From assembly GCF_005144585.1 (NCBI RefSeq), contig NZ_SSMQ01000087.1, forward strand, positions 1 through 49,916: a DNA stretch of 49,916 bases. Direction: 5' to 3'. Below the pieces are notes generated by a model. The model had not been told where the DNA came from and did no database searches. It saw only the letters and a list, made by a program, of their open reading frames with translations. This stretch comes from Polyangium fumosum. Its GTDB lineage: Bacteria; Myxococcota_A; Polyangia; Polyangiales; Polyangiaceae. Below are positions 14,827 to 34,955 of the stretch, one piece after another; the stretch's first letter is position 1, and the number at the start of each line of letters is the position of its first letter. The translations under genes and the position numbers were made by a program.

Positions 14827-16038
14827 TCACGCAGAGAGGCCCTTCAAAGCGGACTTGAGCGCCCCCGCGAGTTTCCCCCGTCGCGCCACCTCGACCCGCT
14901 CCAGGCCGAGCCACGCGGCCATCCTCGAAAGCTCCGCCGCCAAGAGGTCGGGCGTGTCCGGGCCCGCGCCCGGCTCGGTGTGAGAGGCCTGCACCCGCAG
15001 CACCTTCTCTTTGCGGTCGGCTTTCAGGTCCACGCGCGCCGTGATCGTGTCGCCTTCGAGGAAAGGCAAAACGTAATACCCGTGGGTGCGCTTCTCGGCC
15101 GGCGTATAGATCTCCAGCCGGATCTTCACCCCGAAGAGCCGCTCGGTGCGGTCGCGGAACCAGATCAGGTTGTCGAACGGCGAGAGCAATGCGCGGGCGG
15201 CGATCTTGCGCGGCGTCTGCGCCTCGGGGTGCAGGTAGGCCGGCTTGGAAAACCCCTCGACCTTGACGGGCAGGAGCTCGCCGGCCTCGACGAGCTCTTG
15301 CACGCGGGCGCGAGCGCCCTGCAAAGGGAGGCGGAAGTAATCGCGCAGGTCGGCCTCGGTCGCGACGCCCATGGCGCGGGACGCAATGCGGACGAGCGCG
15401 CGCTGGGCGTCGGCCTCGGGCGGCGTGGGCATGCCGTGGATTTCGGCAGGGAGGACCCGCGCGGTCAGATCGTAGACGCGCTCGAAGCCACGCCGCGTGG
15501 CGGTCGTGACGTAGCCGGCCCAGAACAACCATTCGAGCGCGCGCTTGCCCTCGGACCAGGACCACCAGCCCGACGCGCCGCGCGGGCCGGTGGCGAAATC
15601 GCCGCCCGTCACCGGACCTCGTTTCTCGATTTCGGCGAGCACGCTCTCGATGTACGGGCGCCGCTCCTTGCCGAAGCGCGCGAGGCCGCCCCATTGCTCG
15701 CCCGCCTCCGCGCGCGCCATGCGCCATCGCAGCAAGGGCTGGAGCGCGAGCGGCAGGAGCGAGGCCTCGTGCCCCCAGTATTCGAAGAGCGAGCGCTTGT
15801 TCCCCCAGGCCTCCTTCTCCAGGAGCGCCTGCGGATACACGCCGAGCCGCGAGAAGGCGGGCAGGTAGTGGGTCCGGACGATGACGTTGACGCTGTCGAG
15901 CTGGATCACGCCGAGTCGCTCCGCCGTCTTCGCGAAGTGACGCCGGTTCACGCTGGCCGGCCGCGCTTCGCCAAACCCTTGTGCTGCCAGGGCGATACGC
16001 CGCGCTTGGTTGGCCGAGAGGTCGAAGGTCTCCTTCAT
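14827..16038 (-). CDS. ycaQ: YcaQ/AlkX-type DNA glycosylase (winged-helix, HTH_42)
   Basis: A 403-residue protein close to the length of E. coli YcaQ. This family cuts alkylated bases and unhooks DNA interstrand crosslinks. The N-terminal winged helices contain the catalytic motif Q46-L47-D48 (GVIQLDSVNVIVRTHYLPAF), the Q-x-D form known for the YcaQ branch rather than Q-x-Q of the AlkZ branch. Later landmarks are FEYWGHEASLLPL and PFDNLIWFRDRTERLFG, both typical of the family. The ATG at 16038 gives the expected N-terminus (MKETFDLSANQARRIAL), with no strong Shine-Dalgarno site. A repair enzyme of this type is sometimes found near genes for alkylating natural products; the N-nitroso cluster here is 4 kb away. 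Confidence 0.9.
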   Translation of the reverse strand: MKETFDLSANQARRIALAAQGFGEARPASVNRRHFAKTAERLGVIQLDSVNVIVRTHYLPAFSRLGVYPQALLEKEAWGNKRSLFEYWGHEASLLPLALQPLLRWRMARAEAGEQWGGLARFGKERRPYIESVLAEIEKRGPVTGGDFATGPRGASGWWSWSEGKRALEWLFWAGYVTTATRRGFERVYDLTARVLPAEIHGMPTPPEADAQRALVRIASRAMGVATEADLRDYFRLPLQGARARVQELVEAGELLPVKVEGFSKPAYLHPEAQTPRKIAARALLSPFDNLIWFRDRTERLFGVKIRLEIYTPAEKRTHGYYVLPFLEGDTITARVDLKADRKEKVLRVQASHTEPGAGPDTPDLLAAELSRMAAWLGLERVEVARRGKLAGALKSALKGLSA

Positions 16039-19380: not shown

Positions 19381-19620
19381 TCAGGCAGGCAGCGTATACA
19401 CGCCGACGTCACCGTGCTCGGTGCCGACGACGAGCGTGTTGCCGCGGAAGGCGCAGAACGCGCGCTCGCCGTGGACGCTCCGACGGCCGAGGATCGGGCC
19501 GGTCCACGCGGCGATCGTGCCCTCGGGATCGCAGAGGACGACGCCGAGCGCGTGGCTCTTCGGCGGCAGGGCCAGATCCGATGCACGGGACAAATGGGGC
19601 CAGCTCTTCGACTTTGCCAT
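19381..19620 (-). CDS. Small beta-propeller-like fragment protein
   Basis: A 79-residue protein starting at an ATG with GGGAGAGG upstream. The sequence HALGVVLCDPEGTIAAWTGP and RAFCAFRGNTLVVGTEHGDV, ending VYTLPA, looks like two WD40/quinoprotein-type blades. That is too short for a complete propeller, so it is a peptide-sized product, a partner that pairs with another chain, or a gene remnant. It converges with the large TPR protein gene (21 bases apart) and follows the unknown 19757 gene in the same direction. Confidence 0.55.
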   Translation of the reverse strand: MAKSKSWPHLSRASDLALPPKSHALGVVLCDPEGTIAAWTGPILGRRSVHGERAFCAFRGNTLVVGTEHGDVGVYTLPA

Positions 19621-20444: not shown

Positions 20445-20774
20445 TCAACGGCGCGTCGCAAGGACCAGGCGACCGTCGACCGTGATGGGCTCGCCGCCCG
20501 GATCCGGCACGACCGCCGTGGCGCTGCCCGGGCGCACGACGAGCGGCGCGGCGTCGCGCTGCAGGCATCGGAGCGAGACTTCGCCGTCGTGCCACGGGCA
20601 ACGAATCGTGCCCGCGTCCGCGTCGAGCTGCCCGAGGTGCAGCGGCCCGCCGCGGTGCGGGCACGCCGCCCGCAGCAGGTGAAAGACGTGCCCGTCCGTC
20701 GTGCTCAGGAAAAAGCGCAGGTTCCCCGCGATCACGAAGCGCGCGTGACCCGGATCGAATGTCACGACAGCCAT
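20445..20774 (-). CDS. Rieske-type [2Fe-2S] ferredoxin
   Basis: A 109-residue stand-alone Rieske protein. The cluster ligands are Cys38/His40 (CPHRGG) and Cys59/His62 (CPWH), with 18 residues between the pairs, as in the soluble ferredoxins of oxygenases and NirD-type proteins. It has no signal peptide and is probably cytoplasmic. Its start overlaps the end of the SznF-type gene by 13 bases, so expression is coupled to it. The obvious role (inference) is to deliver electrons to the diiron N-oxygenase next door, which needs two electrons per O2 in each hydroxylation. No ferredoxin reductase gene lies in the cluster; a genomic one would have to serve. Confidence 0.9.
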   Translation of the reverse strand: MAVVTFDPGHARFVIAGNLRFFLSTTDGHVFHLLRAACPHRGGPLHLGQLDADAGTIRCPWHDGEVSLRCLQRDAAPLVVRPGSATAVVPDPGGEPITVDGRLVLATRR

Positions 20775-22204
20775 CGCTGAACCTCGCCGATCGAGTGGAT
20801 GTCGTACGTGCATTCGTCGGACTCGATGATCGCGCCGTGCAGCCGATTGCGCCGGATCACCGTGCCCTCCCCCGCGTGCAGTAGCACGGACCGCTCGTGC
20901 CCGGTCACGAACCGCATGGTGCCGGACTGGATGAAGCATAGCTCGTCGCCGTCGTGCACGTGCGTCACCGAGAGCTCGCCGCGCGGCTCGACGAACCGCT
21001 GCACCCTCGGCTTGTCGTGGCTCTTCTCGATGTTCCGGTGAATCGCCGGGGCCAAGGATTTCCAGTGGGCGCTGCCGTCGGACCAGGCGACCTGATCGAT
21101 GAAGTCCTGCGTCGCAATGTCGGTGAGCAGCTTGCCCTCCTCGAACCCTCGCACGATGTCCGGGATGATCCCCTCCCCGAACATCTCCACGGCCGGCAGG
21201 ATCATCTTGTCGTAGACCATCCGGCTGTGGTGCCCATCGATATGGGCGTGCTCCTGGAAGTAGCGGACATCGACGCGCGGGCCGAAGATCTGGCGGAGCG
21301 TGTCCGCCATGCGTCGGCAGAGCGCGATGAAGGCGGTCTCGGCCTGGAAGAGCGCGCCGAGGTACCGGAAAAACCGGCCGTGGTTGCGGCAGACATAATT
21401 GTAGTAGTTGTTCAGGAGGAGCGACGATCCCAGGTAAAACTGCCAGTACGTGTGTGGCGTCGAGGCGAGGCCGACGCTCTCCAGGGCGCCCTCGTAGAGC
21501 GAGCTGTGCCGGGTCTGGTGGACGCCGTAGCCGAGCTCGTCGATGAGGATCTTGAACATCTCCGACTGGAGCGGCCCGTAATGGCCGCCCGCGTTCCGCC
21601 CCATCGCCGACGATTCGAGGAGGAAATCCCCCGCGAGCTGGAGGAGGCACGTCCGGGCCGCGTGCGCTGGGTCCGCGGAGGCGAGGAGGGTGCTCGCCAT
21701 GGGACACTCGGTGCGCCGCCGCTCCTCGGCGAGGAAGCTCTCGAAATATTCTTTCATCGAGGCGAGCGTCCAGCGCCCGGAGACCGAGATCGTGTCGTCG
21801 AGGAAGCTGAACAGATACGACTCGAGCCACGGCCGCACGACGGCGCCGAGGACCTGCGCGCGCCGCCCGTAAAACTCCTCGAGATCGGCGCGCTTCGAGG
21901 CAAGGTCGCGGCGCGGGAGCAGGACGAAGTCGCTCTCGTACAGGGTGAGCAGCGTGCGGCTCGCCGTCAGGCTCGTGTAGGTGAGCAGCTCCTCGCGGGT
22001 GAGCGGCTTCCGGAAGTCGAGGTACTTGAACACGTGCGGTCGCAGCGGGCGGCGGTACGGGTTGTCCTCGACGAGCCAGGTCTCGATGTCGGCGTAGAGG
22101 TCGCTCTCGCCGTACGCCTGCAGGCATTGGGCGAAAACGTCGTAATCTTCGACGACAGGGGATTTCGAGCGTTCGTCCAAGGGGATGTGTTTCTTGTGCT
22201 GCAT
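20762..22204 (-). CDS. sznF-like: SznF-type N-nitrosating metalloenzyme (HDO diiron + cupin)
   Basis: A 480-residue homologue of SznF, which converts N-omega-methyl-L-arginine (L-NMA) into an N-nitrosourea: a heme-oxygenase-like (HDO) diiron domain hydroxylates the guanidine nitrogens and a cupin domain performs the oxidative rearrangement. All SznF ligands I recall have a counterpart exactly +8: E197 (E189), E223 (E215), H233 (H225), E289 (E281), H319 (H311), D323 (D315), H326 (H318) in the HDO domain, and H415, H417, H456 (H407, H409, H448) in the cupin. Landmarks are DELGYGVHQTRHSSLYEGA, EHAHIDGHHSRM, SVTHVHDGDEL and RNRLHGAI. The ATG at 22204 is chosen for GGAG upstream; a GTG 6 bases earlier is possible. 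It lies 30 bases after the SznE-type gene and overlaps the Rieske gene. Length and ligand spacing match the family throughout, so function is highly likely the same or very close. Confidence 0.94.
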   Translation of the reverse strand: MQHKKHIPLDERSKSPVVEDYDVFAQCLQAYGESDLYADIETWLVEDNPYRRPLRPHVFKYLDFRKPLTREELLTYTSLTASRTLLTLYESDFVLLPRRDLASKRADLEEFYGRRAQVLGAVVRPWLESYLFSFLDDTISVSGRWTLASMKEYFESFLAEERRRTECPMASTLLASADPAHAARTCLLQLAGDFLLESSAMGRNAGGHYGPLQSEMFKILIDELGYGVHQTRHSSLYEGALESVGLASTPHTYWQFYLGSSLLLNNYYNYVCRNHGRFFRYLGALFQAETAFIALCRRMADTLRQIFGPRVDVRYFQEHAHIDGHHSRMVYDKMILPAVEMFGEGIIPDIVRGFEEGKLLTDIATQDFIDQVAWSDGSAHWKSLAPAIHRNIEKSHDKPRVQRFVEPRGELSVTHVHDGDELCFIQSGTMRFVTGHERSVLLHAGEGTVIRRNRLHGAIIESDECTYDIHSIGEVQRWLS

Positions 22205-22234
22205 CGTCACTCCGTGGGGAATCGGCTTTGGGTA

Positions 22235-23368
22235 TCAAGAGAGCGAGAAGCGAAGGCTCGTGTCGTCGTGCCTGCACGTGACGGTCACGACCTCGGCGCG
22301 CTCGACGTCGATCGGCGCCTCGAAACATTGGACGGCCTGCATCCAGTGGCTCTGGGGGTTCGTCGGGGCGTTCGTCAGGACGACCCCGCCGCCGAGGTCG
22401 AGCTCGAACCAGAACGCGATGCCGTGGACGCGGCCGCGCCGGCTCGTCGTGACCGAGACCGCGCAGGTGCGCGGATCGAGGGGACCCCGCGCGAAGTCGA
22501 ATTCGAAGGCCTCGGCGGCGGAGCTCAGGAAGACGTGCGGGTGCGCGCGCAGGCGCACCGGAAAATACGATTTCGTCGAGACCTGGTTGAACAGGCTCAC
22601 GTCGAAGCCGCCCGCCTCGAAGGCGAAGTTGTTGCGGTGGACGGCGTCGCTTTCGAGGAGCTGGAAGCGGACCTTCGCCCGCCCCGGGATGATCGTCGCC
22701 CCGGGTCGCAAGAGCTTTTCCCGCGCGTGGCGGACGATCGGAAGAATCCCTTCGCCGAGCAGCCCACAATCGACGGTCTCGGTCACCAGCACATCGGCGC
22801 GCCTCGGCATGTCCCGGCCGACGACGAGGTCGGTCGATGCCTTGGGGATGACCGAGATGTGAGGGTCGAGCTTGTTCTCCGTGATGATCCGCCGCGCGAG
22901 CCGCGCGATCGCCGCGACCGACTCGCAAGTGAACACGGCCCCTGCCCCCGCGCGTGCCGCCATCATGGAAAGGAGCCCCGTCCCGGAGCCCACGTCGAGC
23001 ACCGTGCAATGCGAGTCTCCGATGGCGGTCCCGAGCGCTCGCTCGAAGGCCTGGTTGCGCTCGTGATCGTTCAGCATCGCGAAATGCCAGCGCGGAATGA
23101 GCTTGCGCTGGAGCCCGTTCATCGTCAGGAGGAGGGCCTCGTTGCCTTCGTCGAGCGTCGAGGCCTCCTCGAATCGTTCGAGGGCCCGCTCCAGTTGAAA
23201 ACTCGCGGCGAGGCGGCGGCCCTCTTCGACGAGGGCGCTTGCGCGCGCTCGATCGGCCACGACGCGTAGCTTCGCGCGAGGCGCTCGCCGTTGCTCCTTG
23301 CTCGACTGCGGGCCGACAGCGGACGCGGTCGGGTTTTCCTGCGCGCCCATTCCATTGTACAACTTCAC
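22235..23368 (-). CDS. sznE-like: SznE-type PRMT-like arginine N-methyltransferase
   Basis: A 377-residue SAM-dependent methyltransferase of the protein-arginine methyltransferase (PRMT) fold. Motif I is VLDVGSGTG (123-131). The double-E loop reads TETVDCGLLGEGIL (E197, E206). The THW-type loop is S340-H341-W342. A TPR-like helix pair (about 42-80) precedes PRWHFAMLND (92-101), a junction like that of PRMT7/PRMT9. In streptozotocin biosynthesis the homologous SznE methylates free L-arginine to L-NMA, the SznF substrate. Here the gene is directly upstream of the SznF-type gene (30 bases). The GTG at 23368 has a near-perfect AAAGGAGG 7 bases upstream, better than the ATG at 23350. A sigma-54-like promoter lies 44 bases further upstream. 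Free arginine is the likely substrate, by context. Confidence 0.92.
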   Translation of the reverse strand: MKLYNGMGAQENPTASAVGPQSSKEQRRAPRAKLRVVADRARASALVEEGRRLAASFQLERALERFEEASTLDEGNEALLLTMNGLQRKLIPRWHFAMLNDHERNQAFERALGTAIGDSHCTVLDVGSGTGLLSMMAARAGAGAVFTCESVAAIARLARRIITENKLDPHISVIPKASTDLVVGRDMPRRADVLVTETVDCGLLGEGILPIVRHAREKLLRPGATIIPGRAKVRFQLLESDAVHRNNFAFEAGGFDVSLFNQVSTKSYFPVRLRAHPHVFLSSAAEAFEFDFARGPLDPRTCAVSVTTSRRGRVHGIAFWFELDLGGGVVLTNAPTNPQSHWMQAVQCFEAPIDVERAEVVTVTCRHDDTSLRFSLS

Positions 23369-23411
23369 GAGGTGTCCTCCTTTGGGGCAGTGTGCCGCGA
23401 GCCTCCCCACA

Positions 23412-23426
23412 GCATTCCGTGTGCCA
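23412..23426 (-). promoter_or_regulatory. Candidate sigma-54 promoter for the sznE/F arm
   Basis: Read on the minus strand: TGGCACACGGAATGC. It matches TGGCAC-N5-TTGC with a single mismatch and has the required GG-N10-GC spacing. Transcription would start near 23400, some 30 bases before the GTG of the methyltransferase gene, leaving room for its Shine-Dalgarno site. Confidence 0.6.
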
Positions 23427-23628
23427 GACACAACTCGCGGCGTTCCGGGCCGTGCGGCGCGCCGCCACCCGCGCCGCCGCGCCGCGTACCTGCCGAGCCC
23501 GAGCGTGCTGCGGCATTGCGTTCCCCTGCAGGGTTTTGCGTGACCGTGCAAGCAAGCTTCGTTCGTCCGGCCAACAAACCCCGCGACAAATGCGCTGGAT
23601 CCCGCGCCGCGAGGGGATCCGGGCCCGA

Positions 23629-23643
23629 TGGCACGAGGCTTGA
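23629..23643 (+). promoter_or_regulatory. Weaker sigma-54-like site for the ATP-grasp arm
   Basis: TGGCACGAGGCTTGA matches TGGCACG-N4-TTGC except that the conserved -12 C is A. Transcription would start near 23655, 40 bases before the ATG at 23696. The mismatch at a highly conserved base makes it doubtful on its own. Confidence 0.4.
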
Positions 23644-23695
23644 GGGAGCCGGCGCCGAGGGGCTCGGCCCCACGACGAGAAACCAGGAGACCACG

Positions 23696-24976
23696 ATGCC
23701 TACGACCCGCCCGAACGCAGACCCGAACGGCCGCCCCACCATCCTGCTCGTGAGCAGCGGCTATCACCTGTACCGCGAGTACCTTCTGCGAATGATCTCC
23801 GCGTCCGCGCGGGTCTTTCTTTTCCTCGACCGGGAACCCACGTGGGAACGGTCGTACATCGCGGATCACCAGATCGTCGACACGCTCGACGCGGAGGCCA
23901 TGATCGCCGCCGCCCGCGAAGTCGCGGCGCGCATCGCGATCGACGGCGTGATCTGCTGGGACGAGATTCGCATGGTGCACGCGGCCCGCGTCGCGGAGGC
24001 GCTCGGGCTGCCGGGCACCTCGCCGGTCGCGGTCGGCCGGTGCCGTGACAAACATCAGACGCGCAGTGCGCTCGCCGCGGCCGGCGTGCCGCAGGCGATC
24101 TCCAAGCTGGTATCGTCCGTCGAGGAAGCGGCGAAGACGGCGTGGCAGATCGGGTATCCGGTCGTGGTCAAGCCACGAGCGCTCGGCGCGAGCATTGGCG
24201 TGAGCCGCGTCGAGAGCCCCGACGAGCTCGCCGCCGCCTATCACCACGCGAGGACGTCCACGGAGGACGGCGTACCCCATTACGACGCGAGCGTGCTGAT
24301 CGAGGAATACCTCGAAGGGCCGGAGATCAGCGTCGACGCCGCGTGGGTGAACGGCCGTCTGGTCCCGCTCTTCATCGCGCGCAAGCTCCTCGGCTTCCCC
24401 CCGCATTTCGAGGAAATCGGGCACGTCGTGGACGCGCGGGATCCGCTCCTGCTCGACCCGGCGCTGCTCCGCGTGCTCGACGCGGCGCACCGCGCGGTCG
24501 GCTTCCGGACCGGGATCACGCATACCGAGCTGCGCCTCACCGAGGCCGGTCCCAAGGTGATCGAAATCAACGCCCGGCTGGGCGGCGACCTCATCCCCTA
24601 CGTCGGCTGGGTCGCCACCGGCATCGATCCGGGGCAAGTCGCGGTGGACGTCGCTTGTGGACGCCCGCTGCGCATCACGCCGACCCGGCTGCGGGTCGCC
24701 TCGGTGCATTTCCTCTATCCGGCCGAGGACACGACGGTCTCCGCCGTCGAGGTGGACCAGACCGCGCTCCCGGTGTCCGTGGACGTCGCGGCGACCCTCG
24801 CGGCGCCCGGGCAACACCTCGAGCTGCCGCCGGCCGGCCATGTCACGAGCCGGTATGCGTATGTGGTCCTGTCCGGAAAGACGGCCATGGAGTGCGCCGT
24901 CGGCGCCCAGGTGGCCGCGCACGCGATCAAGCTGCACGCCAAGGTGGCATCCAAGGCTGCGGGAGGAGGACAATGA
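23696..24976 (+). CDS. ATP-grasp ligase 1 of the N-nitroso cluster
   Basis: A 426-residue carboxylate-amine ligase of the ATP-grasp fold, which joins a carboxyl group to an amine through an acyl phosphate. An N-terminal Rossmann-like domain (ILLVSSGYHLYREYLLRMIS) precedes the grasp domain with its nucleotide Lys (GYPVVVKPRALGASIGVSRV), the hinge region (VLIEEYLEGPEISVDAAWVN) and metal-binding end (KVIEINARLGGDLIP). A C-terminal domain of about 90 residues resembles that of L-amino-acid ligases (BacD-like). AGGAGA precedes the ATG. It opens the plus arm and is followed by the MFS gene 1 base after its stop. It could ligate the nitroso amino acid to another amino acid. Substrates are unknown. 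Confidence 0.88.
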   Translation: MPTTRPNADPNGRPTILLVSSGYHLYREYLLRMISASARVFLFLDREPTWERSYIADHQIVDTLDAEAMIAAAREVAARIAIDGVICWDEIRMVHAARVAEALGLPGTSPVAVGRCRDKHQTRSALAAAGVPQAISKLVSSVEEAAKTAWQIGYPVVVKPRALGASIGVSRVESPDELAAAYHHARTSTEDGVPHYDASVLIEEYLEGPEISVDAAWVNGRLVPLFIARKLLGFPPHFEEIGHVVDARDPLLLDPALLRVLDAAHRAVGFRTGITHTELRLTEAGPKVIEINARLGGDLIPYVGWVATGIDPGQVAVDVACGRPLRITPTRLRVASVHFLYPAEDTTVSAVEVDQTALPVSVDVAATLAAPGQHLELPPAGHVTSRYAYVVLSGKTAMECAVGAQVAAHAIKLHAKVASKAAGGGQ

Positions 24977-24977
24977 G

Positions 24978-26300
24978 ATGACGACACAGACGAGCGACGC
25001 CGCCGCCTCGGCCCGGCGTGATTTCCGCGTGTTATGGGCCGGCCAGTCGCTGAACCTGCTCGGTGATCACTTCATGGTGCTCACGCTGCCGCTCTTGGCC
25101 GTCACGGTGATCGGCGCCTCGGCCGCGGAGGCGGCGCTGCTCCCCTTTGCCCTCTTCGTCCCCTTTTTGCTGTTCGGCCTGCCGGCCGGGGCCGTCGTCG
25201 ATCGATTGCCGCGGCGCCGCACGATGATCCTCTGCGACGCCGCGCAAGCCGCGATCTTCTTGACGATCGCGGCGCTCGCCGCCACCTCCGTGCTCTCGCT
25301 GCCGTGGCTCCTCGTGCTCGTCGGCCTCGCCGGCACGGCGACGCTCTTTTTCCAGGTCGCGTACACGTCGTATCTGCCCGAGCTCTTCCCGGACGCGCGT
25401 GATTTGCAGCGGGGCAACGCGCGCCTGTTCTTCTCCGAATCCGTGTCGCGGACGCTCGGACCGGTGCTGGCGGGGCCCGTCATCGCCGTCCTCGGGCCCG
25501 TCGTCGCGGTGGCCGCCAATGCAGGCTCATTCGTGCTCTCCGTGCTCTCGGTCGCCGCGATCCGGCACCGCGAGCCGGCGCGCGCGCCGAGGGCCCGCAA
25601 GCCCGGCTGGATGCTCGACGACATCCGCGAGGGCCTCCGTTTCGTGTTCGGCCATTCCGAGCTCGAGCCCGTGATTCTGTGCGGCGCCGTCTACGTGCTC
25701 TTCCTCAGCATGATCGAGGCGAGCCTCGTGCTCTATTGCCGCCACGTGCTGGGCCTCGGCCCGACCGGCAGCGGCGTGGTCGTCGGCGCGGCAGCGCTCG
25801 GCTTCCCGATCGGAAACCTGCTCTCGTCCCGCCTCGTCGACCGGCTCGGCGTCGCCTCCACGCTCGTCGTCAGCGCTTGCGTGTCGGTCACGGGCCTCGT
25901 GCTCATCCCGGTCGCCGGGAGCGCGGGCTCGGCCGTCGCCCTCGTCGCGGCCAGCGTGCTGCATGGCACAGGCGAGGGCGCGTTCGGCCCGACCTCGCTC
26001 ACGTTGCGCCAGACGGCCACGCCTGCGCACCTGCTCGGCCGGATCAACGCGGTCCAGCGGTTCTTGTTATGGGGAACGATCCCGCTCGGCAGCCTGATCG
26101 CGTCCCTCGCCATCAAGCTCATCGGCCTCCGCGGCGCCGTGTGGATCGGCGGCCTCGGGACCTGCCTCTGCCTGCCGGTGCTGCTCCGCCGCGGCATTCG
26201 CGACGGCCTGGCCCAGCGCTGGGCCGCCGCGCGTGGCCGCGCCCTTTCGCCCTGCCCTTCGACCCCGACCGGCGCCCCGCGCGCCCCCGAGGAGGATTGA
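24978..26300 (+). CDS. MFS exporter (MFS_3-like)
   Basis: A 440-residue integral membrane protein with about 12 hydrophobic segments, from FRVLWAGQSLNLLGDHFMVL to the last (GSLIASLAIKLIGLRGAVWI). The sequence GLPAGAVVDRLPRRRTMIL carries the loop 2-3 MFS signature D-R-x-x-R-R. The N-terminal layout is typical of the MFS_3 group of efflux pumps that export small molecules. The start has GGAGGAGG upstream and lies 1 base after the ligase stop, so it is translated with it. In this position it probably exports the product or protects the producer from it. A Pro-rich cytoplasmic tail ends the protein. Confidence 0.88.
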   Translation: MTTQTSDAAASARRDFRVLWAGQSLNLLGDHFMVLTLPLLAVTVIGASAAEAALLPFALFVPFLLFGLPAGAVVDRLPRRRTMILCDAAQAAIFLTIAALAATSVLSLPWLLVLVGLAGTATLFFQVAYTSYLPELFPDARDLQRGNARLFFSESVSRTLGPVLAGPVIAVLGPVVAVAANAGSFVLSVLSVAAIRHREPARAPRARKPGWMLDDIREGLRFVFGHSELEPVILCGAVYVLFLSMIEASLVLYCRHVLGLGPTGSGVVVGAAALGFPIGNLLSSRLVDRLGVASTLVVSACVSVTGLVLIPVAGSAGSAVALVAASVLHGTGEGAFGPTSLTLRQTATPAHLLGRINAVQRFLLWGTIPLGSLIASLAIKLIGLRGAVWIGGLGTCLCLPVLLRRGIRDGLAQRWAAARGRALSPCPSTPTGAPRAPEED

Positions 26301-27248
26301 ATGCACCTCGCCGACGGCCTCCAGACATTCATCGACCGATGCAATCGCGCCATGCCGCCCGACTTCTACACGCGCCCCCTCGCGGAGCAGCGCGCCCTCT
26401 ATCTCGGGCTCACCCGGGAGTTCCCGTATGAAATTCCGCCGGACGTGACCCTCACCGACGACGTGGTCGCCCACGGGCGGCGGCGCGTGCGGGTACGCGT
26501 CTACCGCCCGCGTGCCCCGGTGGGCCGCGGCCTGCTCGTCTACCTTCGCGGCGGCGGGTTCGTGGTCGGCTCGCTGGAGACGCACGATACCGTCGTCGCC
26601 GAGCTTGCCAGCCGCTCAGGGCTCGTCACTGTCGCGCCCGACTTCCGGATGGCGCCCGAGCACCCGTTCCCGGCGGCCCTGGAGGATTGTTATGGCGCGC
26701 TCTCGGGCATCGTCGTCGAGGCCGCGCGGCTCGGCGTCGATCCGGACCGCATCGTGATCGCCGGCGACAGCTCCGGCGCGAACATGGCCGTCGCCGTGGC
26801 CATGATGGCCCGGGACCGCGGCGGCCCCTCGCTCCGCGGCCAGGCCCTCATCAGCCCGGTCCTCGACTTCACCCGCTGGCGCCGCGGCGGCGCCGACGCG
26901 CCGCTGCTCACAGGTGGCGAAATGGAATACTACACAGCCTGCTACACCCCCGATTCCGCGCAGATCGAGCATCCATATGTATCTCCCCTCGTCCGCGGCG
27001 CCTTCCATGGCCTGCCGCCTGCGTACCTGATGGGCGCCGAGCTCGACTCGCTCTGCGTCGACGCGGAAAACTACGCCCGTCGCCTCCGCGAGAATGGCAT
27101 CCCCGTCGACCTCGTGATCGAGCCCGGGCTCGTGCACTCGGCCGTCCGCGCGCGAGGGCTCTGCCCTGCGGTCGAGGACGCGTGGGCAAGGTTTTGCAGC
27201 CGGGCGGCGCGGCTCGCCTGCGTGGAGGGCGACCATGCCTCGAAGTGA
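26301..27248 (+). CDS. HSL-family alpha/beta-hydrolase (esterase/amidase-like)
   Basis: A 315-residue hydrolase of the hormone-sensitive-lipase family. The nucleophile Ser157 is in GDSSGAN; Asp249 (AELDSL) and His279 (GLVHSA) complete the triad. The oxyanion loop reads Y-L-R-G-G-G (83-86), so the usual His of HGGG is Arg. The remaining family marks are present (APDFRMAPEHPFPAALED). The ATG follows the MFS stop directly and the end overlaps the second ligase gene by 14 bases. It may hydrolyse an ester or activated intermediate, or act as a transferase; the changed oxyanion loop leaves catalytic competence uncertain. Confidence 0.85.
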   Translation: MHLADGLQTFIDRCNRAMPPDFYTRPLAEQRALYLGLTREFPYEIPPDVTLTDDVVAHGRRRVRVRVYRPRAPVGRGLLVYLRGGGFVVGSLETHDTVVAELASRSGLVTVAPDFRMAPEHPFPAALEDCYGALSGIVVEAARLGVDPDRIVIAGDSSGANMAVAVAMMARDRGGPSLRGQALISPVLDFTRWRRGGADAPLLTGGEMEYYTACYTPDSAQIEHPYVSPLVRGAFHGLPPAYLMGAELDSLCVDAENYARRLRENGIPVDLVIEPGLVHSAVRARGLCPAVEDAWARFCSRAARLACVEGDHASK

Positions 27249-28512
27249 CCCGAATGGGCCGGCGGTGATCGTCGACCCCTACTCCTCGGGCGCTCTCTTT
27301 GCGCCCGCATTCAAAGCGGCCGGCGTCCCCGTGGTGGCGGTCGTGTCGAGCCCCGCGCCGCCGGCCGTCTACGCGGCCTCCTACCGGCCGGAGCACTTCC
27401 AGACGATCCTCACCGCGAGCGAGGACCTCGAGCCCCTCGTGGAGCGCCTGCGGGCCCTCGGCCCCCGGTGTGTGCTGCCGGGCTGCGAGTCCGGCGTGGA
27501 GCTCGCGGACGCGCTCGCGCCCCTCGTCGTCCCGGACGTCGCCAACGACCCCGAGAAGGCGAGCGCGCGCCGGCACAAGGGCGACATGGCGGCGGCCGTG
27601 GCCCGCGCCGGCCTCCCCATTCTCCGGCAGCTCTGCACGAGCGACGCCGACGAGGCCGAGGCGTGGCTGCGCCGCTCGAGCCTCGCCGGCCGGGATCTCG
27701 TGATCAAGCCGCCGAAGAGCGCCAGCACCGACGGCGTCACCCGCGTGCCCCGCGGCGAAGGGTGGCGGGACGTCTTCGATTCGATGCTGGGTCGCCCGAA
27801 CCGCCTCGGCATCGTCAACGATCGGCTCCTCGTGCAGGAATACGTGACCGGCACCGAATACGTGGTGGACACGTTCAGCTACGAGGGAAACCACACCGTC
27901 ACCGACGTGTGCCGCTACCACAAGGTGGACAACGGCCCGTACATGGCGGTCTACGAGCGCATGGAATGGTTGTCCCCGAAGACGCCGGGGATCGAGCGCT
28001 TGATCGGCTACACGCGCGGCGTGCTCGACGCGGTCGGGATCCGGTTCGGCGCGGCGCACGTGGAGCTGATGCTCACCCGCGAGGGCCCGCGGCTCATCGA
28101 AATCGGCGCGCGCCCGCACGGCGGCGGCCAGCCGAGGTTCTGCCGCGTCGCGACCGGCGACAGCCAGGTGGACCGGACCGTGCGTTATTTCGCCCGGCTC
28201 GGGCACGTCCGGGAGGGGTTTGGCCTGCAAACCCACGTCCTCGTGGTGTTCCTGATCGTCCGGAGGCCGGGCATCGTGCGGAACGTCGAGGTCTTCGGCG
28301 AGGTCGAGTCGCTCGTGAGCCACCATTTCTCGGCCATCCGCTTCCGGAACGGCGATTGTCTCGAGCCCACGAGGGATCTCTTCGGCAGCCTGGACCTCGG
28401 CTTCGTGGTCCTCGCGCACGCGGACCGCTCCCAGGTGCACGCCGATTACCACAAGATCCGTGACATCGAGCGGCGGCTCTGGCTCGACGATTCCAAGGGA
28501 GCGCAAGCATGA
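27235..28512 (+). CDS. ATP-grasp ligase 2 of the N-nitroso cluster
   Basis: A 425-residue ATP-grasp protein, distinct from ligase 1 (the two share fold landmarks but not close sequence). Landmarks are GRDLVIKPPKSASTDGVTRV, the substrate/hinge segment LVQEYVTGTEYVVDTFSYEG, and the metal site VELMLTREGPRLIEIGARPH followed by GGGQ. The N-terminal domain starts with AVIVDPYSSGALFAPAFKAA and contains a glycine-rich serine motif. This architecture is seen in L-amino-acid ligases and in resistance or tailoring ligases. The ATG has GGAGGG upstream and overlaps the esterase gene. Two ligases imply two amide bonds, or one bond plus a protecting group. This is inference. Confidence 0.88.
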   Translation: MPRSDPNGPAVIVDPYSSGALFAPAFKAAGVPVVAVVSSPAPPAVYAASYRPEHFQTILTASEDLEPLVERLRALGPRCVLPGCESGVELADALAPLVVPDVANDPEKASARRHKGDMAAAVARAGLPILRQLCTSDADEAEAWLRRSSLAGRDLVIKPPKSASTDGVTRVPRGEGWRDVFDSMLGRPNRLGIVNDRLLVQEYVTGTEYVVDTFSYEGNHTVTDVCRYHKVDNGPYMAVYERMEWLSPKTPGIERLIGYTRGVLDAVGIRFGAAHVELMLTREGPRLIEIGARPHGGGQPRFCRVATGDSQVDRTVRYFARLGHVREGFGLQTHVLVVFLIVRRPGIVRNVEVFGEVESLVSHHFSAIRFRNGDCLEPTRDLFGSLDLGFVVLAHADRSQVHADYHKIRDIERRLWLDDSKGAQA

Positions 28513-29456
28513 ATACGGACAAACCTGCCGCGCCCGTGGAGCCTCGATCGTTCGTTCACCCGGACGGGCGGCTCCACGACGTCGGCGGGCATCACCTCTG
28601 GGTGGAGCAGGCCGGCGCGGGCGAGACCGTGGTCTTGCTCTCCGGCCTCGGCCCCGCCGGGTCGCACGTGATCTTTCACCCGCATTTCGACGCGCTCGCC
28701 GCGGACCATCGGGTCGTGTACGTCGACCTTCATGGGCGTGGCCGTTCGGACGTCCCCGCCGATCTGCGGGCGATCACGTTCGAGAGCGACGTGGCCGACG
28801 TGGCCGCGCTGCTCCGGTCCCTCGACGTTGGTCCCGTACATTTGTACGGATTTTCGTACGGCGGCCTCCTCGCCCAGGCGCTCTCCCTCGACCACGCGGC
28901 CCTCGTACGCACGCTCGTGCTCGCCAACAGCCTGCACAGCCCGGAGATGTGGCAGCAAAACCATGCCAACATCAACCGGGAGCTCGCGAACCAATGCCCC
29001 GATGTTTGGGCGCGGATCGAGGCGATGCGCGCCGAGGGCATTGCCTCGACCGATCCGCGCATGCAGCGGGAGTTTGCCGTGGCCGCGCCGCTCGTGCGGT
29101 TCTTCAACCCCGAGAGCGCCCGCCGGCTCGCCACGGAGCCGGGCGCCCGCAACGCAGAGCTCTATCCGCTGTTTTGCGGGGACGACGTCGATTTCATCAT
29201 CGGCGGCGAGGTCGCCCGCATTCCGGACTTCCGGCCGCGGCTCAAAGACGTGGCCGTCCCCATGCTCGTGCTCGCCGGCCGCTTCGACCGGGCGCTCTAC
29301 CCTGCCCTGCAGCGCCAGTTCCTGACCTTCGCGCCCTCGGCCGAGTTTCGCGTGCTCGAGCGCAGCGGCTCGTTCGCGCACGTCGAGGAGCCGGACGAGG
29401 TGCTCCGGATCCTGCGCGCCTTCTGGGCGCGCGCCGAAGCGCCCCGCGTTGCCTGA
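28509..29456 (+). CDS. Alpha/beta-hydrolase, proline-iminopeptidase-like (S33)
   Basis: A 315-residue hydrolase of the S33 type. The nucleophile Ser116 lies in GFSYGG, with Asp260 (GRFDRAL) and His291 (SFAHVEEP) as the other triad members. The opening segment (HLWVEQAGAGETVVLLSGLG) and YVDLHGRGRSD are typical of the fold. The ATG overlaps the ligase stop (ATGA) and has GGGAG upstream. It is the last gene of the plus arm. Such enzymes trim N-terminal residues or hydrolyse activated esters, so this one could release a protecting residue from a stored inactive form after export, as in other peptide warhead pathways. That is inference. Confidence 0.85.
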   Translation: MNTDKPAAPVEPRSFVHPDGRLHDVGGHHLWVEQAGAGETVVLLSGLGPAGSHVIFHPHFDALAADHRVVYVDLHGRGRSDVPADLRAITFESDVADVAALLRSLDVGPVHLYGFSYGGLLAQALSLDHAALVRTLVLANSLHSPEMWQQNHANINRELANQCPDVWARIEAMRAEGIASTDPRMQREFAVAAPLVRFFNPESARRLATEPGARNAELYPLFCGDDVDFIIGGEVARIPDFRPRLKDVAVPMLVLAGRFDRALYPALQRQFLTFAPSAEFRVLERSGSFAHVEEPDEVLRILRAFWARAEAPRVA

Positions 29457-31668: not shown

Positions 31669-32391
31669 ATGCGTGAAATGGAAACCCTCGCCCCGCCCCC
31701 GCGCGTGCGATCCCTCGTGCTCGTCACGCCGATCTTGCAGGGCTTCGTCCCCTCGCTCCCCGCGCTCCGGTACGTCGAGCGCCTCCAGGGCGTCCTGCAT
31801 GGGCCCGCGGAGAGCAAGGAGGCGGGGCCGAGCGTGCTCGACATCATCGATTCCGTGCATTTCGCCCAGTGGTCCATCCTCGACGGTGGCCGGCGGCTTT
31901 TGTTCGTCTCGATGTTCGTGGGCGAGCTCGAGCCGTACCTGAAGGATTTTTCGGTTCGTATGGCCTGGGGCCTCGATCTCGTCTGGATGCATTGCGAGGG
32001 CTACCCGGGGGCCGCGCAGTTCGAGCCGTTCGTCGCCTGGGTGAAGCGACACATGGTGCAGGCCGACCGATTCCACGCGGCGAACCCGGACGTGACGGTC
32101 GTCGACGTCCGGTGGTGGAAGGCGCAGCATGCGCAACTCGAAGCATTCCGGCGCAAGGTCCACTGCGGCGGCGATCTCGGCGCGCTCTTCGCCGAGCTCG
32201 AACGGGGGCTCGCGCGGCTCTCCGCCGTCGACGAGGAGGCCGAACGCCGCTTCCTCCTGTCGATTGAGGACAACATACGCGCGAGCCTCCGGGATCTCCG
32301 GGAGAAACGGCTCTTCTCGCCGGCCGAGATCGATCCCATCGAGCGCAATTTCGAGCAGGTGATGGCGAGCCTGGCAGGGGAACAATCATGA
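31669..32391 (+). CDS. Unknown protein between lipase and peroxidase-P450
   Basis: A 240-residue soluble protein. The ATG at 31669 has AAGGAGA 4 bases upstream; an ATG at 31678 is also possible. A beta-alpha-beta-like pattern is seen, with conserved-looking LLFVSMFVGELEPYLKDF and GLDLVWMHCEGYPGAAQFEP. These resemble dimeric alpha/beta-barrel (DyP/chlorite-dismutase-like) folds, but I cannot confirm that. The C-terminal 80 residues are helical. Its stop overlaps the fusion gene start (ATGA), so the two products are made together and may interact. Confidence 0.7.
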   Translation: MREMETLAPPPRVRSLVLVTPILQGFVPSLPALRYVERLQGVLHGPAESKEAGPSVLDIIDSVHFAQWSILDGGRRLLFVSMFVGELEPYLKDFSVRMAWGLDLVWMHCEGYPGAAQFEPFVAWVKRHMVQADRFHAANPDVTVVDVRWWKAQHAQLEAFRRKVHCGGDLGALFAELERGLARLSAVDEEAERRFLLSIEDNIRASLRDLREKRLFSPAEIDPIERNFEQVMASLAGEQS

Positions 32392-34955
32392 AAACGAAGG
32401 ACGAATCCAGGATCGAGCTCGACGACGTGCAGGGCCACCTCCTGCTCTCCTATGGCAAGACGTTCGGCATGCGCCACGCGCGCTTCGTGTTCCTGCATTT
32501 CGAGGACGTCGCCGCCGGGCGGCGGTGGATCGCCGCGAAGATCCCCGACATCACGACGGCACGCACTGCGCCGCCGGGACCTGCTTCCACGCTGAACCTC
32601 GCGTTCACGTTCGAGGGGCTCGAGGCGCTGGGGCTCGCCGCCGAGGAGCTCGACAGCTTCCCGGAAGAGTTTCGCGAGGGAATGGAGAAACGCGCGGCGT
32701 TCCTCGGCGACGTCGGCGAGGACGCGCCCGATCGTTGGGACCTCTTGCCGCGAGGCGCGCCGCCCCTGCACGCGATGGCCATCGTTTATGCGCGCAGCCA
32801 GGCCGAGGCGGACGCGCGTGCAAGCGAGCTTTGCGCCGAAATCGAGGCCACGCGGACGCGTATCCTCCACGTGCAGACGGCGGCTGGGCTCGAAGGCGGA
32901 CGGGAACATTTTGGGTTTGCCGACGGCGGCAGCAACCCGAGCGTGGCCGGCGATGGGAGCGGCGCGCCGCCGGGGCGCGTACTCGAACCCGGCGCGTTCC
33001 TGCTCGATCATCCCGACGATTTCGGCGCCGTCGCCTCCCGCCCGACCCCGAAGGAGCTGCGCCGCAATGGCACGTACCTCGCCTTGCGCAAGCTGCGCCA
33101 GGACGTGCCCGGGTTCCGCCGGTTCGTCGCGGAAAACGCGGCGATGCTGGGCATGGACGCGGAGCTCGTCGCCGCGAAGCTCATGGGGCGGTGGCGGAGC
33201 GGCGCGCCGCTGGTGCTCGCCCCCGAAAAGGACGAACCGAACATGCCCCCCGAGCGGCGCGACCATTTCGCCTACCGGACCGAGGATCCGCAGGGCCTCC
33301 GCTGCCCCTTCGGCGCGCACATCCGGCGCGCCAACCCGCGCGACGCCATGCCCGTCGCGAGGCGCACCGCGGTCCGCACGCACCGGCTCCTCCGACGCGG
33401 GATGGCCTATGGCCCGCCGCTGCCGGAGGGCCAGGGCGAGGACCACGTGGATCGTGGGCTCATCTTCATCGCCTATTGCGCATCGCTCTCGCTCCAGTTC
33501 GAGATCGTGCAGCAATGGCTGAACAACGGGAACGTCAGCGGCGAGCCGAGCACGGTCCACGACCCCGTCGTCGGATCTTCGTTCTCCCAAGGGACGTTTA
33601 CCGTGCCCGTGGCCGGCCCGAACGGCGAGCTTGCCTCCGTTCATACCCTCTGCGGGCTGCCAAGCTTCGTCCGGGCGCGTGGCGGCGCGTATTTCTTCGT
33701 GCCCGGCATCCACGCGCTCCGTTACCTCGTGAACGTGGCCCCACCCGAGACCCAGCCCATCGAAACGTTCCTCCAATCCTATACGCTCGCGCAAAACGAC
33801 GAGGACAAAAAGGATTCCGTCGAGGCCTGTCTGCTGGACCCTGTGACCGCGCGGCGGCCGTTCTGCGACACCGCGGAGAGCTGGCGCGCGCTGCGCAAGC
33901 AGGCGCCGATCTTCGAGACCCCGCACGGCGTGCTCGTGTCGCGCTTCCGGGACGTGCAGGAGGTCCTCGCCAAACCCGAGGTCTTTTCGGTCCAGGAATA
34001 CGACGCCCGCATGGCGGCCACCGTGGGGCCGTTTCTCCTGGGCTTCGACGGCGAGCGCCACAAGCGCGAGGCATCCCTCGCGCGCCTCGTCCTCCGGCCG
34101 CGGGATCTGCCGCGCGTGCTGGAACGCGCCCGCTTCGTCACGCACGTGCTCCTCGATCTCGCCCAAAAACGGGCGAAGGGCGAGCCAAACTTCGTTCCCC
34201 AGGTCGTCATTGCCTCGGTCGTGCGGACGGCGGGCGAATATTTCGGCGTCCCCGGGCCTTCCGACGAGGATTTGTTCCTCTGGCTCAGCGTGGCGTCGGC
34301 CTACATCTTTTTCCCGCTCCCGAACGACGAGCGCGCGGCCGCCGGCGCCGCCGCCGGCATTGCATTCCAGCAGTACCTCGACGAGCTCCTGCGCGCGCGG
34401 GAGGCCGCGATCGCCGCCGGAACCTCCGCGGAGGACGACGTGCTCGGCCGGCTCCTCGTGCTGCCCGCGGCGCACGGGCTCGACCGCGCCGGCATTCGTC
34501 GAACCCTGGGCGGGCTCGTCTCCGGGACGATCATACCGACCGCGATGACCCTCCTCCATGCCCTGGCGTACCTCCAAGGCGCGCGCGAGGCCGGCGAGCA
34601 AGCGCGCGAGGCCGCGACGAAGCGGGACATGGATCGGCTGAAAGACATCCTGCTCGAAGCCGCGCGGTTCGACCCCTATCCGTCGCTGCTCTACAGGACC
34701 GCCATGGCCGATTGCGAGCTCGCCGCGGGGACGCCCCGCGCGACCCGGATCGGAAAAGGCAGCCGGGTCATCGTCTCGCTCGGCTCGGCCATGGACGACG
34801 AGGAGGCCCTCGAACACCCCGAGGCCTTCCAGCCGGGCCGCCCGGACGAGCATTATCTCCTCTTCGGCCACGGATCCCACGCTTGTATCGGGCGATTCCT
34901 GGCCGGCCCATTGATGGCCGAAATCGCGGCCCCGCTGCTCACCCTGGGGGCCTGA
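32388..34955 (+). CDS. DyP-type peroxidase fused to cytochrome P450
   Basis: An 855-residue double heme protein. Residues about 10-450 are a DyP-type peroxidase: distal motif GFADGGSNP (Asp179, versus the usual GFxDG) and proximal heme His311 in CPFGAHIRRANPRD. A short linker (about 450-480) leads to a cytochrome P450 (about 480-855): ExxR at Glu757/Arg760 (LLEAARF) and the heme-thiolate loop FGHGSHACIG with Cys833. The P450 I-helix reads GGLVSGTIIPTAMT, without a clear AGxxT. The fusion resembles, in arrangement only, fungal Ppo enzymes, where a heme peroxidase/dioxygenase oxidises a fatty acid and a P450 rearranges the hydroperoxide. The patatin lipase in this operon makes such a role plausible (inference). 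It could also act on a natural product. Confidence 0.9.
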   Translation: MKTKDESRIELDDVQGHLLLSYGKTFGMRHARFVFLHFEDVAAGRRWIAAKIPDITTARTAPPGPASTLNLAFTFEGLEALGLAAEELDSFPEEFREGMEKRAAFLGDVGEDAPDRWDLLPRGAPPLHAMAIVYARSQAEADARASELCAEIEATRTRILHVQTAAGLEGGREHFGFADGGSNPSVAGDGSGAPPGRVLEPGAFLLDHPDDFGAVASRPTPKELRRNGTYLALRKLRQDVPGFRRFVAENAAMLGMDAELVAAKLMGRWRSGAPLVLAPEKDEPNMPPERRDHFAYRTEDPQGLRCPFGAHIRRANPRDAMPVARRTAVRTHRLLRRGMAYGPPLPEGQGEDHVDRGLIFIAYCASLSLQFEIVQQWLNNGNVSGEPSTVHDPVVGSSFSQGTFTVPVAGPNGELASVHTLCGLPSFVRARGGAYFFVPGIHALRYLVNVAPPETQPIETFLQSYTLAQNDEDKKDSVEACLLDPVTARRPFCDTAESWRALRKQAPIFETPHGVLVSRFRDVQEVLAKPEVFSVQEYDARMAATVGPFLLGFDGERHKREASLARLVLRPRDLPRVLERARFVTHVLLDLAQKRAKGEPNFVPQVVIASVVRTAGEYFGVPGPSDEDLFLWLSVASAYIFFPLPNDERAAAGAAAGIAFQQYLDELLRAREAAIAAGTSAEDDVLGRLLVLPAAHGLDRAGIRRTLGGLVSGTIIPTAMTLLHALAYLQGAREAGEQAREAATKRDMDRLKDILLEAARFDPYPSLLYRTAMADCELAAGTPRATRIGKGSRVIVSLGSAMDDEEALEHPEAFQPGRPDEHYLLFGHGSHACIGRFLAGPLMAEIAAPLLTLGA

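Follow-up and report, generated by a model that had tools for sequence, protein, structure and literature searches.

A predicted N-nitrosourea pathway in Polyangium: an SznF-like gene, its Rieske neighbour and a cassette shared with cyanobacteria

Background

SznF (StzF), from the streptozotocin pathway of Streptomyces achromogenes, is described in the available text of PMC11705231 as the only enzyme known to construct an N-nitrosourea group. Its homologues are reported in diverse bacteria: in the available text of a 2024 study, SznF and 135 other proteins are found in szn-type clusters (PMC10849742). A further relative is described here, encoded on contig NZ_SSMQ01000087.1 of Polyangium fumosum, a soil myxobacterium whose genome (12.98 Mb) is assembled in 201 contigs; the whole contig, 49,916 bases, is referred to as the window. 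An initial annotation, made from the letters of the window, had indicated a gene for a protein arginine methyltransferase (PRMT)-like enzyme, followed by one for a heme oxygenase-like diiron oxygenase (HDO) with a cupin domain, and had proposed an N-nitrosourea pathway in a myxobacterium, of a kind for which few clusters were described. The host is indeed a myxobacterium, of the genus Polyangium. The pair itself is of a known kind, szn-type clusters being already reported in bulk, so that the statement on their rarity was too strong.

The pair is part of a cassette of eight genes (20445-29456), which probably constitutes a specialised-metabolite pathway to an arginine-derived N-methyl-N-nitroso (N-nitrosourea) compound, including a Rieske electron donor, ligases and an export protein. 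In this analysis the reading is based on gene content, on catalytic residues, on the conservation of the cassette across phyla, and on the linkage between the Rieske gene and the diiron domain.

Results

The SznF-like and PRMT-like proteins

Both genes of the pair are found where they had been placed, on the minus strand, with 24 bases between them (Table 1). The SznF-like protein contains the Pfam domains Haem_oxygenas_2 and Cupin_2, and has the length of SznF, as had been anticipated; scanned against NCBIfam, it matches 0 families. The likelier start of its gene is the ATG at 22204: relatives L010, L041 and L042 start at the matching place. SznF from S. achromogenes (PDB 6m9r) is matched by phmmer at E 4.6e-147, with 226 identities over 449 aligned residues (50.3%); the alignment, whose failure across the whole length had been set beforehand as evidence against the proposal, covers residues 30-479 of 482.

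All 11 functional residues checked are kept in the window protein: the seven diiron ligands (E189, E215, H225, E281, H311, D315, H318), among them E189, which we take to be a ligand in SznF too, the three cupin histidines (His407, His409, His448) and Tyr459. Ten of these 11 positions, including six diiron ligands, are called essential or mechanistic in the available text of PMC11705231. The structural check proposed in the initial annotation was made on an AlphaFold prediction of intermediate quality (mean pLDDT 68.3, pTM 0.76, from 10 sequences). The first 12 Foldseek matches are SznF chains (E 1.8e-26 to 2.6e-25, TM-score 0.70-0.76), with a large root-mean-square deviation (7.5-8.2); the next HDO enzyme in the ranking, HrmI, is far below (E 6.5e-5). 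The SznF alignment and the complete set of metal ligands support, at the level of sequence, the interpretation of the pair as belonging to an N-nitrosourea pathway.

The PRMT-like gene has a GTG start, with a ribosome site, AAAGGAGG, just upstream. Its product was correctly recognised at the outset: the best solved relative in PDB is PRMT7 (E 2.6e-44), and Pfam reports PRMT_C. E197, E206, H341 and W342, presumably the paired glutamates and the HW loop of PRMT nomenclature, are invariant in 10 of 10 aligned PRMT-like sequences, that of the window among them. Among the 16 distinct SznF-lineage loci listed below, 10 have a PRMT gene next to sznF or next to the Rieske gene. The label SznE, used initially, stands as far as PRMT features and adjacency to sznF are concerned, and is given here as "SznE-like".

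When 15 SznF proteins are aligned, both metal sites are intact in all the 10 that are paired with a PRMT. In a tree of SznF proteins, support is good both for the Polyangium group and for the one formed by five cyanobacteria; 8 of the 13 inner branches are open, and therefore no direction of transfer between Polyangium, cyanobacteria and SznF is claimed.

Linkage of a Rieske gene to the diiron domain

A Rieske gene is found directly downstream of sznF, on the same strand, in 16 out of 16 distinct SznF-lineage loci featuring the seven diiron ligands: the window, G339, G370, L010-L017, L041-L043, L046 and L050. L047, L048, L049 and L040 were left out as repeats of L010, L012, L015 and L013, respectively; the counts refer to loci, not to independent events. 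The Rieske profile was built from 14 of the 16 loci, where the gene was first found by BLAST or by record annotation; L046 and L050, outside the profile, are independent matches (E 1.2e-14 and 3.7e-30). In the window, the start of the Rieske gene overlaps the stop of sznF by 13 bases. The ligands C38, H40, C59 and H62 (CxH...CxxH) do not vary among the 14 aligned sequences, one of which is that of the window.

Three of the 16 loci are without a working cupin, yet have the Rieske gene: in L043 and L013 the cupin histidines are lost, in L046 the cupin is absent. The sole relative with degenerate diiron ligands, L018 from Tistrella, has no Rieske gene within 9 kb. As a control, HDO loci outside the SznF lineage were searched, and a Rieske match (E 1e-3) was found at 0 of 34. 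Of these, 26 are stand-alone HDO loci of cyanobacteria in which all seven ligands are likewise present, taken as the top scorers among the loci of an order-wide profile search (flanks up to about 1.5 kb), and 8 are other Polyangium HDO loci, six in G000, one in G370 and one in G339 (flanks of about 3 kb). This pattern (16/16, 0/1, 0/34) indicates that the Rieske gene tracks the SznF-lineage diiron domain, rather than the cupin or HDO proteins at large.

As the simplest reading of the gene linkage, the Rieske protein may donate electrons to the diiron site of SznF. A serious competitor, though an unlikely one, is another function, such as a part in a later oxidation step or in sensing: the Rieske protein has no proven partner and no reductase in the cassette, and the 26 stand-alone loci show that an HDO site, as such, does not need a Rieske neighbour. 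Such a function would leave unexplained why loci without a working cupin (no cupin in L046, no cupin histidines in L013 and L043) have kept the gene beside the diiron domain, and why L018, the one locus with lost diiron ligands, is without it.

A candidate for the preceding step is found in Methylobacterium where, about 330 bases before the PRMT gene, a protein with MOSC, FAD-, NAD- and 2Fe-2S domains is encoded; it could feed electrons to the Rieske protein. In all, MOSC-domain proteins are encoded near two SznF relatives (L014, 5855-7690; L015, 13399-14226); in Methylobacterium, the protein is a fusion with an FAD/NAD/2Fe-2S reductase. Reduction of N-hydroxylated compounds is the activity of YcbX/mARC-type MOSC proteins, and those found by SznF relatives may contribute either to electron supply or to detoxification. 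Separately, the record of a Rhizobium leguminosarum plasmid (L046, 5488-7049), which is unannotated, contains a cupin-less SznF-lineage HDO with seven diiron ligands and its own Rieske gene.

No report of a link between Rieske proteins and SznF was found in the literature searched; it may be in print in the founding SznF papers. The Rieske gene represents a direct, testable candidate for the reductant of the SznF diiron site, a question not settled in the available text of PMC11705231.

Composition of the cassette

Beyond the pair initially noted, the cassette includes the Rieske gene (20445-20774, minus strand) and five divergent genes (23696-29456, plus strand). The minus-strand trio is parted from the plus-strand five by a 327-base gap.

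Table 1. Genes of the eight-gene cassette, with their position in the window.
Gene product	Position	Strand	Features
Rieske [2Fe-2S] protein	20445..20774	-	109 aa; Pfam PF00355, E 1.1e-7
SznF-like enzyme, putatively N-nitrosating	20762..22210	-	482 aa; N-terminal region, HDO diiron domain, C-terminal cupin
PRMT7-like arginine methyltransferase, SznE-like	22235..23368	-	377 aa; proposed N-omega-methyl-L-arginine maker
ATP-grasp ligase 1, L-amino acid ligase type (BL00235/BacD-like)	23696..24976	+	Pfam PF13535
Major facilitator superfamily (MFS) transporter, proposed exporter	24978..26300	+	Pfam PF07690, E 7.2e-39; PF05977
Alpha/beta hydrolase, hormone-sensitive-lipase (HSL) type	26301..27248	+	PF07859, E 2.6e-61; GDSSG motif
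ATP-grasp ligase 2, L-amino acid ligase type	27235..28512	+	NCBIfam NF005543, 490 bits (cut-off 302)
Second alpha/beta hydrolase	28536..29456	+	PF12697, PF00561; GFSYG motif; 306 residues

The best solved relatives of the two ATP-grasp proteins are both L-amino acid ligases: PDB 3vot for ligase 1 (E 8.8e-25) and PDB 30vh for ligase 2 (E 1.8e-56). Ligase 2 scores 148 bits against NF041595, dapdiamide A synthase, under the cut-off of 840. Both proteins fit the L-amino acid ligase class, the assignment being to the class and not to substrates. By Pfam, no sugar or glycosyl-transfer gene and no nonribosomal peptide synthetase (NRPS) gene is found among the eight. The initial statement that streptozotocin sugar genes are missing thus holds for the cassette, the rest of the window being scanned in part. 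Promoter and terminator scans gave nothing informative.

Relatives in cyanobacteria and other bacteria

All eight genes are present, in a single direction, in three cyanobacterial loci: L010 (Amazonocrinis), L011 (Calothrix) and L041 (genome G832). Gene order within each block is the same as in cyanobacteria, the first three genes being inverted in Polyangium. Across the eight genes, identities between Polyangium and these loci are about 47-76%; relative to L010, the extremes are the Rieske protein (47-48%) and the second hydrolase, the most conserved (75.5%), with the MFS protein at 66.5%. The second hydrolase frame is shorter in L041 (257 residues vs 306 in the window). None of the other window genes searched has a match in L010 or L011, so the limits of the cassette are well set.

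Smaller sets are found elsewhere. PRMT, SznF and Rieske genes are kept in two other cyanobacterial loci, L012 and L042, with different genes afterwards. Plasmid loci from Methylobacterium indicum and Pantoea dispersa contain PRMT, SznF, Rieske and an ATP-grasp gene, accompanied by an alpha/beta hydrolase gene in the former and by an MFS gene in the latter.

Two further observations concern these neighbourhoods. A small M24-peptidase-like protein, with no match in the window, goes with four cyanobacterial clusters (L010, 18123-18863; L011; L012; L042). In L013 (7627-11610), from Pyrinomonadaceae, an SznF relative and a Rieske gene are flanked by a class III aminotransferase on one side and an ornithine/aspartate carbamoyltransferase on the other; the SznF relative, in which diiron ligands are intact and cupin histidines gone, perhaps belongs to a hydroxyarginine pathway.

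Distribution and decay

In counts including the centre genomes, sznF is found in 3 of 377 sampled Myxococcota genomes, all three from the genus Polyangium; in 2 of 386 from the phylum of genome G377 and 6 of 217 from its family; and in 1 of 396 from the phylum of G380, namely G380 itself. The profile search of 388 genomes from the order of G377 produced a match at E 1e-20 in 117: four are full-length SznF types (618-828 bits), the others scoring 74-110 bits over the HDO part. A single-protein scan of genome contigs returned five loci. Viral contigs, scanned with the SznF alignment, yielded 126 pattern-matching stretches, none of which was confirmed as a relative.

Within Polyangium, the PRMT gene is present in 4 of 6 genomes and sznF in 3 of the 5 tested, G765 being outside the sznF test. 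Two sister species feature partial cassettes, for which assembly error is possible. G368 (L024) retains intact genes for the PRMT, the HSL-type hydrolase and ligase 2; it has lost sznF and most of the Rieske gene, its ligase 1 and MFS genes have been truncated and joined into one, and an internal part of its second hydrolase is missing. In G370 (L007) sznF, PRMT, Rieske, HSL-type hydrolase and both ligases are intact, and most of the MFS gene and of the second hydrolase is missing: these are the only losses above 500 bases in the aligned stretch (14.8-49.5 kb).

Outside the cassette, about 1.6 kb found in G339, G370 and G368 are missing at window position 19562-19563, either by deletion or as an assembly effect. 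At 32388-34955, a single 855-residue frame encodes both a Dyp-type peroxidase-like and a P450-like part.

Alkylation repair genes

Both L010 and L011 have an Ada gene some 1.1 kb past the end of the cassette; after it comes a PF09859 DNA-damage oxygenase (L010) or its homologue (L011). In L014 an Ada gene lies about 6.6 kb before the PRMT gene, accompanied by genes for an AlkA-type protein and for another homologue of the PF09859 oxygenase; in L017 it is directly upstream of sznF. Alkylation by streptozotocin is reversed by AlkB and AGT homologues, according to the available text of PMC9040887. By analogy, the presence of Ada genes by four relatives fits a DNA-methylating product, as streptozotocin is.

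Two candidates for self-protection were rejected. Extra MGMT/Ada copies are not a feature of sznF carriers: all 6 Polyangium genomes have three MGMT-type matches apiece, whether sznF is present (3 genomes) or absent (2; G765 is outside the sznF test), and PF09859 is found in 0 of the 6. A gene for an AlkZ/YcaQ-like DNA glycosylase (14827-16035, minus strand; PF06224) is present in five Polyangium genomes, with or without sznF, including G292 and G368, which lack an intact sznF. Its QLD motif suggests what we take to be the YcaQ-like housekeeping type. AlkZ/YcaQ-like glycosylases are split into two subfamilies in the available text of PMC9040887.

Discussion

Proposed pathway

In the proposed pathway, the PRMT-like enzyme would methylate a terminal guanidine nitrogen of L-arginine. 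The SznF-like enzyme would then perform two hydroxylations at the diiron site, followed by a rearrangement at the cupin iron, giving an N-nitrosourea, with the Rieske protein providing the electrons that the diiron site uses each time O2 is activated. The product, or a precursor, would be coupled to other amino acids by one or both ATP-grasp ligases, to form a small peptide; the two hydrolases would trim or release groups, and the MFS protein would export the product. Substrate, step order, electron transfer, peptide nature and product export are what we infer in this scheme. A wider proposal, that SznF-lineage N-oxygenases have a dedicated Rieske ferredoxin reductant and that the cassette makes a peptide-borne "Trojan horse" N-nitrosourea, a product class of myxobacteria and cyanobacteria not described in the literature searched, is tentative, and should be taken as possible rather than probable.

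Two ligases are fixed in the cassette, and they might act first, so that the SznF-like enzyme would oxidise or nitrosate arginine or methylarginine inside a di- or tripeptide; a protein-tethered formation of diazeniumdiolate is raised as possible for chalkophomycin in the available text of PMC10849742. This order of events is quite unlikely: the substrate of SznF is the free amino acid (PMC11705231, available text), and the window protein shares 50% identity with SznF and has every residue that was checked. It is also improbable that the pair mainly makes nitric oxide, through decay of the N-nitrosourea amino acid, with nitric oxide as the active output and the other genes handling by-products. 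The SznF product can decay non-enzymatically to nitric oxide, as stated in the available text of PMC11705231, but a dedicated source would have no need of two ligases, a transporter and two hydrolases, conserved across phyla. Least credible is a diazeniumdiolate (graminine-type) metal ligand, built by the ligases into a small metallophore: it is suggested by the link of GrbD and similar SznF relatives to diazeniumdiolate metallophores (PMC10849742, available text) and by the MbtH gene adjoining the Tistrella relative, but metallophore pathways use NRPS genes, absent from the cassette, the presence of a dedicated PRMT speaks for N-methylarginine, and the window protein has an intact diiron site, that of the Tistrella relative being degenerate.

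Formation of an N-nitrosourea from N-methylarginine is therefore retained as the best reading of the pair; the following points weigh against it. Enzyme activity and product are predictions, and the PRMT-like protein is called SznE-like from its PRMT features and its position, not from the sequence of SznE. L015, L016 and L050 retain both metal sites with no PRMT gene in the available stretch (only 3.3 kb for L050), so intact sites are not by themselves a marker of PRMT pairing. The 16 Rieske-bearing loci are not independent, as three are from Polyangium and five from close cyanobacteria; no reductase for the Rieske protein is encoded in the cassette; and the overlapping Rieske gene is established for the cassette, the comparison with the streptozotocin pathway being at the level of the SznF protein. 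Neither Ada nor a PF09859 homologue is present in the window and in the L004-L009 stretches: with no such neighbour, and no extra copies relative to sister species, the host gives no support for a dedicated protection against a DNA-methylating product. Finally, the cassette is dispensable, being partly deleted in two sister species.

Comparison with known systems

The closest described system is SznE/SznF (StzE/StzF) of streptozotocin biosynthesis in S. achromogenes, where PRMT and SznF also occur together, and whose diiron, cupin and Tyr459 residues are shared by the window protein. Unlike the streptozotocin cluster, the cassette has no glucosamine or sugar gene, and features instead two L-amino acid ligases and two alpha/beta hydrolases. 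A compact cassette with ligases and without sugar genes, common to Polyangium and cyanobacteria, points to a second product class. The szn-type network clusters in the available text of PMC10849742 are of the same enzyme family and broadly of the same cluster type; the cassette, or its cyanobacterial versions, may be among the 135 proteins reported. The words "Rieske", "SznE" and "ATP-grasp" do not occur in the main text of that study, as far as available, and the eight-gene arrangement shared between phyla, with its pair of amino acid ligases, was not found in the literature searched, founding papers aside.

GrbD/ChmM-type relatives (gramibactin, chalkophomycin, tistrellabactin) share with the window protein the SznF fold and the cupin. 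They differ in their setting, of NRPS/polyketide synthase type, and in making graminine rather than an N-methyl-N-nitrosourea. In the network cluster that led to ChmM, all members but one are without many of the diiron ligands (PMC10849742, available text).

For the ligases, both cassette proteins are of the same ATP-grasp family as bacilysin BacD and dapdiamide DdaF. These two enzymes make dipeptide antibiotics; to our knowledge, no N-nitroso group occurs among the dipeptide antibiotics made by ATP-grasp ligases. For the Rieske protein, a parallel is offered by TmoC-type Rieske ferredoxins, stand-alone proteins of about 110 residues found beside the diiron oxygenase of toluene monooxygenases. 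The oxygenase fold is different from that of the cassette enzyme, and the likeness drawn between the two systems is one of description.

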